Of a stretch of 64,000 nt of DNA, positions 40,304 to 40,754 are shown piece after piece. Source of the DNA: Fidelibacterota bacterium. GTDB taxonomy: Bacteria; Fidelibacterota; UBA8477; JABMPR01. The notes beneath the pieces are model-generated. The model worked only from the letters and a program-made list of their open reading frames with translations, was not told the origin of the DNA and ran no database searches. The position numbers were made by a program, and so were the translations under genes. Positions within the stretch are counted from its first letter, which is position 1. Every line of letters starts with the position of its first letter. Location of the stretch: NCBI GenBank assembly GCA_021734325.1, contig JAIPJF010000020.1, positions 1 to 64,000 on the forward strand, in the 5' to 3' direction.

Positions 40304-40375
40304 TCCGGAGTAGCTCAGTGGTAGAGCGAGTGGCTGTTAACCACCAGGTCGGGAGTTCAAATCTCTCCTCCGGAG
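40304..40375 (+). tRNA. tRNA-Asn (anticodon GTT)
   Basis: A full cloverleaf can be folded: acceptor TCCGGAG (40304-40310) with CTCCGGA (40368-40374), D arm GCTC/GAGC, anticodon loop CTGTTAA giving GTT, T arm GGGAG-TTCAAAT-CTCTC, discriminator G at 40375. CCA is not encoded. One A-C mismatch tops the anticodon stem. A strong promoter and a strong terminator flank it. Confidence 0.95.
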
Positions 40376-40380
40376 CATAA

Positions 40381-40416
40381 ATAAAAAGACCTCATCGAAA
40401 GATGGGGTCTTTTTAT
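40381..40416 (+). terminator. Rho-independent terminator of tRNA-Asn
   Basis: A 16-bp stem (40381-40396 with 40401-40416, one G-T pair) with a GAAA tetraloop and U-rich 3' arm lies five bases after the tRNA. Confidence 0.92.
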
Positions 40417-40443
40417 TTATAGTCACTGCGTGACAGATTTGAA

Positions 40444-40531
40444 CGGAGAGGAGTTCACCACGGAGTCCTGACATAGCATGTCGGGACGTAGTTGAGGCTC
40501 ACCGGAAGGGCAGCCAAATCTCTCCTCTCCG
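40444..40531. other. Structured 88-nt element resembling a decayed tRNA
   Basis: CGGAGAGGAG (40444-40453) and CTCCTCTCCG (40522-40531) are perfect 10-bp inverted arms. Inside, GTCCTGACA (40465-40473) and TGTCGGGAC (40479-40487) form a 9-bp hairpin with loop TAGCA, and GGCT/AGCC can close a third small hairpin. The 3' side CAAATCTCTCCT repeats 12 bases of the tRNA-Asn 3' part (40358-40369), and GGAGAGG is a common tRNA-Ser acceptor half. No normal D or T arm can be built, so it is at best a tRNA-derived pseudogene or another structured RNA/repeat. Confidence 0.5.
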
Positions 40532-40754
40532 CATTCGCACACTTTGATAAACTCAGCGTCCAGCTACGGCGGGCCATGCTCCGCAAAATTAGGCCCCCAT
40601 CGGGAAACTTTTTTTATTCAATGAGTGGTTGAGTTGAACGAACGGAGCATTAGCACTGGAGTTCATCTGGAGTGAGTTACCGGCGGTGTTGGCCTGGGCT
40701 CTGTGCATCTTGCCCAAACCTGCTATTAAAAATGAAACACGCTATAAAATTTTG

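Follow-up and report, generated by a model that had tools for sequence, protein, structure and literature searches.

Short non-coding units at tRNA T-loops in a genus of Neomarinimicrobiota, with a probable degenerate copy beside tRNA-Asn

In one genus of Neomarinimicrobiota, small structured elements of a common family lie 3' of numerous tRNA genes; matches to the family were found in this genus and in one further genus of the same order. Its members share an anatomy and a position at tRNAs, their helices covary, they form tandem arrays, and orthologous loci include filled and empty places. We lean toward explaining them as non-coding, T-loop-anchored units that are gained or lost whole while the tRNA stays intact. 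An element at positions 40444..40531 of the window (the whole 64,000-nt stretch of DNA analysed, from a marine bacterium) would then be the right-hand part of a unit set into the tRNA-Asn T-loop between nt 57 and 58, together with the displaced tRNA 3' end. The unit would bring along a fresh 3' end and so leave the host tRNA intact, with the original 3' end pushed behind the core. Repeated filling would give tandem arrays, and units would be inherited at the tRNA locus with fast-diverging hairpins and with gain, exchange or precise loss all possible.

The initial annotation had described this element (+ strand) from its fold and repeats as an 88-nt segment with a perfect 10-bp closing stem, a 9-bp inner hairpin and 12 repeated bases of the tRNA-Asn 3' part, and each of these observations was borne out. 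The closing stem pairs CGGAGAGGAG (40444-40453) with CTCCTCTCCG (40522-40531), the inner hairpin at 40465-40487 has 9-10 pairs including one G-U, and the direct repeat is actually 13 nt long (CAAATCTCTCCTC, 40515-40527 = 40358-40370). The RNA fold of the element reaches -42.9 kcal/mol (z -4.84), which is equalled by 0/200 shuffles, and the DNA fold has a z of -4.14. Read against tRNA-Asn, the element is a split T-arm, with GGAGTTCA at 40450-40457, an insert of ~58 nt and then AATCTCTC, without a mismatch in 16 nt; its 3' side after the insert reads AAATCTCTCC. The register of the 10-bp closing stem, as read from the sequence, is slipped by 2 nt relative to the T-stem. An inverted match to the tRNA-Asn T-arm (40432-40444, 13 nt, 92%) lies directly 5' of the element.

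The tRNA-Asn (GTT) gene itself is intact (40304..40376, + strand; ARAGORN, and Rfam RF00005 at 68.4 bits), and its T-loop is the anchor site. By analogy with a 142-143-nt unit at the same tRNA in a related genome, G009, the window unit would span 156 nt (40360..40515, +) and comprise a tRNA 3'-end replica, a terminator, a spacer hairpin and a structured core. The putative terminator, T1 (40377..40420, no strand assigned), is a strong, symmetrical palindrome that separates tRNA-Asn from the element; it has A-rich/T-rich flanks and 20-nt arms that are 95% complementary (-22.4 kcal/mol, z -8.8), and it is missing from the output of a simple terminator scan. The spacer with hairpin 0 (TGAAC...GTTCA; 40421..40457, +) ends in the T-arm 5' half. 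A degenerate core follows (40458..40515, +; covariance models R1 and R2), in the order CCACGGA, hairpin, GTAG..GAGG, hairpin, GCAGCC. Behind it stands the displaced or duplicated tRNA 3' part, AAATCTCTCCTC (40516..40527, +; direct repeat D2), which holds the T-loop, the T-stem 3' strand and the start of the acceptor strand.

Farther downstream, by eye, a hairpin-like stretch interrupts the acceptor strand before an acceptor-end remnant, CTCCGC (40579-40584; the whole at 40528..40584, +), and resembles inserts at the same point of other copies. A second hairpin family seems to occupy this T-stem/acceptor junction of tRNA 3' copies, for example at window 40528-40578 (by eye; also L052, L058, L042 and L053). 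A degenerate second terminator, T2 (40585..40622, +), aligns with DNA 3' of tRNA-Asn in genome G008, and a partial second unit comes after it (40623..40720, +), in which a spacer hairpin and GGAGTTCATCTGGAGTGAG... core start are recognised by similarity to G009 and by R2. Over 40596-40681 the window is 74% identical to G009.

The covariance-model and genome self-searches that the initial annotation had proposed returned neither a tRNA or Rfam match for the element nor a second copy in its own genome. Rfam 15 at gathering score finds tRNA-Asn alone (40304-40375), the tRNA covariance model has no match on the element at E ≤10, and Rfam below gathering yields nothing convincing there; a DNA search of the own genome with 141 nt spanning the element returned no place other than the query's. 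We therefore rule out a tRNA gene, since RF00005 matches 40304-40375 only, and a known Rfam family, for lack of a gathering-score match. Of the three origins suggested initially, a decayed tRNA is only partly right: of a tRNA the copy retains just the T-arm and a portion of the acceptor 3' strand, and the insert between these parts belongs to a conserved family. An attachment-site by-product comes nearest, given that the 3' side represents the tRNA-Asn 3' end, displaced or duplicated, and that relatives have filled and empty places. The attR of an integrated island was rejected: the gap between the tRNA-Asn end and the 3' copy is only 138 nt, with no listed ORF ≥60 aa overlapping it and no integrase-bearing island between tRNA and copy. 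A small structured RNA, the third suggestion, may apply, as the family helices covary, although the window copy stands behind a terminator-like hairpin.

The family was assembled from tRNA-Asn downstream regions across the genus and a DNA search with one such region. 3' of many tRNAs the last ~17 nt of the tRNA recur, and a ~40-115-nt structured insert precedes this copy; the insert point is the T-loop, nt 57|58 of the tRNA. At its best the common insert reads TTCR-CCGGAG-hairpin 1-GNAGGAAGGCGAGG-hairpin 2-CAGCC-AAT. A complete unit measures ~113-206 nt. It contains a copy of the host tRNA's final ~17 nt, in many cases a terminator, a spacer hairpin that ends in GTTCR, and the conserved core, which has two hairpins and ends in CAGCC or similar. 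In some cores a third hairpin family sits inside the hairpin-1 loop, as seen by eye between G012 and G013 fMet (L113 vs L114). Units stand in tandem in G005, G009 and G020, the last with at least three, each of which has a terminator by eye; the genomes are incomplete and mostly fragmented assemblies, in which tandem repeats may be misassembled.

Two covariance models were built: R1 from 20 sequences, among them the window copy, and R2 from 16 sequences, none from the own genome. At E ≤0.05, R1 gave at least 75 matches in 18/19 genus genomes, the counts being lower bounds from a limited number of scored candidates and the E-values of these home-made models being rough. A same-strand tRNA lies ≤600 nt upstream of 42 of these matches, at 37-302 nt; 7 have less than 600 nt of upstream sequence, and 26 are without a tRNA within 600 nt upstream, several of them sitting in tRNA fragments by eye. 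Outside the training set, 28/57 matches are downstream of a tRNA and 6 of the 57 are not judgeable. In 20/42 cases (one cut by a contig end) the copied 3' half equals the 3' half of the neighbouring tRNA right up to the end. Across 245 genomes of the phylum, R1 at E ≤0.001 with stricter filters matched 19, namely 17/19 of the genus and 2/226 others, both of these from a single genus of the same order. Rfam at gathering score found only tRNAs at 12 loci of better-conserved members, and for one member the matches below gathering were all either antisense to tRNA or at chance level. One core pattern had 0 exact matches in viral contigs and 17 records in genome contigs, 9 of them Neomarinimicrobiota; the other 8 were treated as chance (best R1 score 22.8 bits).

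Split copies of the T-arm were also sought directly, by scanning within 500 nt of the 43 tRNAs of the own genome for each tRNA's own T-arm in two parts of 8+8 nt. At ≤2 mismatches they occur downstream of 9/43 tRNAs and upstream of 0, against 41/1692 for the arms of other tRNAs, and at ≤1 mismatch for 5/43 against 4/1692; at 3 mismatches (15 downstream, 7 upstream, control 260/1692) the test loses force. R1/R2 core matches coincide with 5/9 of these tRNAs (Met, Met, Asn, Lys and Pro-TGG). Of the other four, the copy at tRNA-Pro(GGG) is a complete one in tandem, a different hairpin occupies that at tRNA-Ser(TGA), the first copy at tRNA-Phe has no R1/R2 core match, and one tRNA-Met match looks spurious.

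The window core is found by R1 at 40453-40520 (24.2 bits, this copy being in the R1 training set) and by R2 at 40454-40520 (14.6 bits), the latter a weak score with E 0.24 in 177 kb and 7.5e-4 in a 551-nt stretch; the second, truncated unit is found by R2 at 40661-40720 (13.1 bits). The 177 kb comprise the flanks of all 43 own-genome tRNAs, two GIY-YIG loci and the window. At E ≤10, R2 has 12 distinct matches there, 12/12 downstream of a tRNA on the tRNA's strand, a nearness to tRNAs that is partly given by this choice of DNA. R2 has no other match in the rest of the 64-kb window. This pattern makes it likely that the window copy is a family member, and suggests that it is probably a decayed or degenerate one. 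Its insert lies between the two halves of the tRNA-Asn T-arm, which match with 0 mismatches in 8+8 nt, as in the family.

The initial annotation had held that a lack of expression, of further copies and of structural conservation would refute the element; family copies and covariation were both found. In the 20-sequence alignment, 12/20 pairs show changes on both sides, and 0/500 shuffles do as well. Fitting 92 matches to the model gives 195 both-side cells against 57.4 in shuffles (0/500), in an alignment that leans to the model; in the same 92 rows, the number of pairs with both-side changes (12/13) is not above shuffles (12 vs 10.4, 72/500). The T-stem pairing of the copy is also above chance, with 124/228 against 105.9 (sd 4.7, 0/2000 shuffles; 57/78 matches parsed). 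C-GNA-G triloops are common in cores (24 with stems ≥4; background 1/163 triloops with stems ≥6). Such loops mark very stable single-stranded DNA hairpins and are stable in RNA too, so this excess, counted with different stem limits, does not decide between DNA and RNA.

Covariation this strong raises a reading that we regard as rather unlikely: that the core could be a non-coding RNA under selection, produced either within the tRNA transcription unit or from a promoter of its own, with hairpin 0 or the T-stem copy as its closing helix, and acting perhaps as a tRNA-like decoy or processing element. Conservation of core, spacer and downstream DNA fits such an RNA at tRNA-Ser(GCT) (0.92/0.80/0.65), a second tRNA-Ser locus (0.75/0.36/0.44) and tRNA-Gln (0.71/0.48/0.34), but at Arg (0.55 vs 0.64) and Asn (0.48 vs 0.57) conservation of the core falls below that of the spacer. 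By eye, no terminator was seen between tRNA and core at Ser, Gln and Arg loci of this genus, whereas a terminator-like hairpin stands there at Asn, Met and Pro. Cores also group by locus. Together with the T-stem pairing and the locus conservation this leaves room for an RNA function, although presence varies at orthologous tRNAs. If the core is a selected RNA, it would represent a new family of structured RNAs associated with numerous tRNAs.

One such difference is at tRNA-Ser(GCT), where a 129-130-nt unit is present in G011, G006, G012 and G003 and absent from the orthologous place in G009. The next tRNA gene lies at +173 to +175 in the four unit-bearing genomes and at +45 in G009; leaving the unit out puts it at +44 to +46 in the former. 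Upstream identity is 176-186/200, and the ~45 nt up to the next tRNA match only 29-32/47-49 when joined and 25-27/49-54 as they are. The match after joining thus rests on the spacing and the next tRNA gene, because the intergenic stretch is poorly conserved. Similar shifts are seen at tRNA-Met and tRNA-Pro of the own genome (G000), but broken 3' copies there defeated the automatic joining; it also failed at tRNA-Arg of G000. Some extra units (tRNA-Met, G000 vs G009) have no core in the T-loop. We infer that such places were filled by insertion rather than left empty by loss of an ancestral unit, and that movement would proceed via the T-loop or the 17-26-nt repeats. The filled and empty pairs could also be old arrays with precise loss between repeats.

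A second locus points to exchange between genomes. The tRNA-Asn of G009 carries a unit of ~142-143 nt; against its orthologue in G008 (upstream 184/200), the 90 nt that directly follow the tRNA agree in 57/105 columns as they are and in 71/91 with the unit left out. G009's T2, after the displaced 3' end, is identical at 47/53 positions to the terminator directly 3' of tRNA-Asn in G013, whose own upstream DNA is unrelated (118/234). G009 is also the closest match to the window here, with 78/81 identical positions over 40377-40457, 66/73 in the tRNA-Asn and 30/58 in the interior. The flanks of G009 nevertheless side with G008, its close relative, and not with the distant genome of the window. 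Compared with G008, G009 is 88% identical upstream, 95% in the promoter and 100% in the tRNA 5' part but 56% in T1 and 51% in the spacer; compared with the window it is 73% identical upstream and 85% in the tRNA 5' part but 96% in T1 and 97% in the spacer.

A segment exchange of this kind, broken within the T-arm or close to it, would suit an account without dedicated mobility, in which homologous recombination between the 17-26-nt tRNA 3'-end repeats carries the core as a passenger; we hold this possible, if on the improbable side, and are equally tentative about its route of Campbell-type gain, looping-out loss and unequal crossing-over. The tRNA 3' end does recur as a direct repeat at both edges of a unit, and near-identical tandem units exist (G009 C145, G002 C96). 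Repeats of 17-26 nt are nevertheless short for efficient homologous recombination, and the account leaves unexplained why related cores sit at T-loops of different tRNAs with different flanks. At the other extreme would be a mobile non-coding cassette of ~130 nt, inserted site-specifically into tRNA T-loops, with a tRNA 3'-end replica, single-stranded hairpin recognition and tRNA-anchored arrays, and moved in trans by a putative recombinase, which we find doubtful. Recombination across the repeats is the simplest route and a recombinase in trans the most novel. The nearest neighbour of a core lies at the same tRNA type in another genome for 21/42 cores (3.8 when shuffled) and at a different tRNA type in the same genome for only 2/42. 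Cores thus group by tRNA type, and therefore hopping between tRNAs is not frequent.

As for a mover acting on T-loop-anchored units, no candidate clearly tracks the cores. GIY-YIG was set aside as mover, with a small gene of this type within 1.5 kb of 4/75 cores among the matches listed (5 with a broken one in G003). Y1_Tnp is present in 16/19 genomes without clear tracking of cores, and a Y1 transposase was not found in G003 and G009, both core-bearing (their genomes are incomplete). A serine recombinase at tRNA-Asn was rejected as core source, as the one island end that could be read, in G017, joins the acceptor end and most cores are without such a neighbour gene. Protein genes recurring beside cores are mainly orthologous neighbours, with a few GIY-YIG genes, and unsystematic inspection saw no link of cores to serine recombinases or integron integrases. 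Y1 (RAYT-like) transposase genes do lie beside individual cores in G006 C10 (L169) and G002 C121 (L011, by eye).

Known systems resemble the unit in part. REP/BIME elements are RAYT-mobilised palindromes, which like the unit are short, hairpin-rich, non-coding, vertically inherited and present in many copies per genome; the unit differs in being tied to tRNA T-loops with a tRNA 3' end, and Y1 does not clearly track it. Integron gene cassettes likewise build arrays beside a fixed anchor and have a structured part, but no attC-like sequence was seen in the unit, the integron of the own genome reading CCTAACAA...GTTAGG. An integron cassette was rejected for the element: IntI is elsewhere in the genome, the core model is silent there, and the attC-like repeats differ. 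R1 likewise has no match in the loci of five of the integron integrases, which exceed the cut-off in 11/19 genus genomes. Downstream of the own-genome integrase (G000 C24, L248; 468 bits) come cassette-like genes that carry CCTAACAA/GTTAGG sites. Rickettsia palindromic elements are small palindromic inserts with a preferred site type, known mainly from protein genes; the unit too prefers one type of site but sits in T-loops of tRNA 3' copies. A search of the open-access literature (PubMed Central) found no description of such non-coding units at tRNA T-loops.

Selfish DNA at tRNA genes is known from GIY-YIG homing endonuclease genes of the phage T4 SegB type (PMC13096335). Small GIY-YIG genes stand behind tRNAs here too, but near only 4-5 of the 75 cores among the matches listed, and the window unit, which has no ORF ≥60 aa, was rejected as a homing unit of this kind. 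In the own genome small GIY-YIG genes lie 3' of tRNAs in 5/8 of the GIY-YIG matches listed (L062, L088, L084, L086 and L108), one GIY-YIG gene is 3' of the tmRNA gene, and two GIY-YIG ORFs end, by eye, inside a copied T-arm. Across the genus, a same-strand tRNA is just upstream of 9/30 GIY-YIG loci inspected.

tRNA 3' ends are classic docking sites of large islands, and integration of islands, phages and ICEs is well known to leave partial tRNA genes at attR, in cases described in PMC9897764 together with elements of several kb. The unit shares with these a truncated tRNA 3' copy beside a tRNA that the insert leaves whole and a direct 3'-end repeat, and differs from those cases in being ~113-206 nt long and non-coding, with a conserved core, no integrase and tandem arrays. 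That the copies are merely attR scars of deleted islands, with the hairpins as random intergenic debris, seems to us very improbable. Serine recombinase genes at tRNA-Asn in G011 and G017, and similar DNA in G012, G018 and, behind a tRNA copy, G005 (by eye), speak for scars, but the insert is a covarying family and not debris. Moreover, the G017 island shares only about GGAGC with its right end (by eye) and so joins the acceptor end, not the T-loop.

At these loci the serine recombinase gene abuts tRNA-Asn in G011 (L015, Pfam-checked) and G017 (L012, by eye), its last codons running antisense through the tRNA-Asn 3' end. The similar DNA stands 3' of tRNA-Asn in G012 (L020) and G018 (L023), and behind a copy, not the tRNA, in G005 (L022). 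The G017 island is ~19 kb long and holds type I restriction genes (by eye).

If T-loop-anchored units of ~130 nt do repair the tRNA that they enter, they would indicate how little is needed for tRNA targeting. For annotators, split tRNA fragments call for caution. At tRNA-Pro GGG of the own genome (G000 C1, L103/L030), three degenerate tandem tRNA-Pro copies follow the gene, in which, by eye, a hairpin stands in place of the anticodon arm and, in some copies, a further hairpin splits the acceptor strand.
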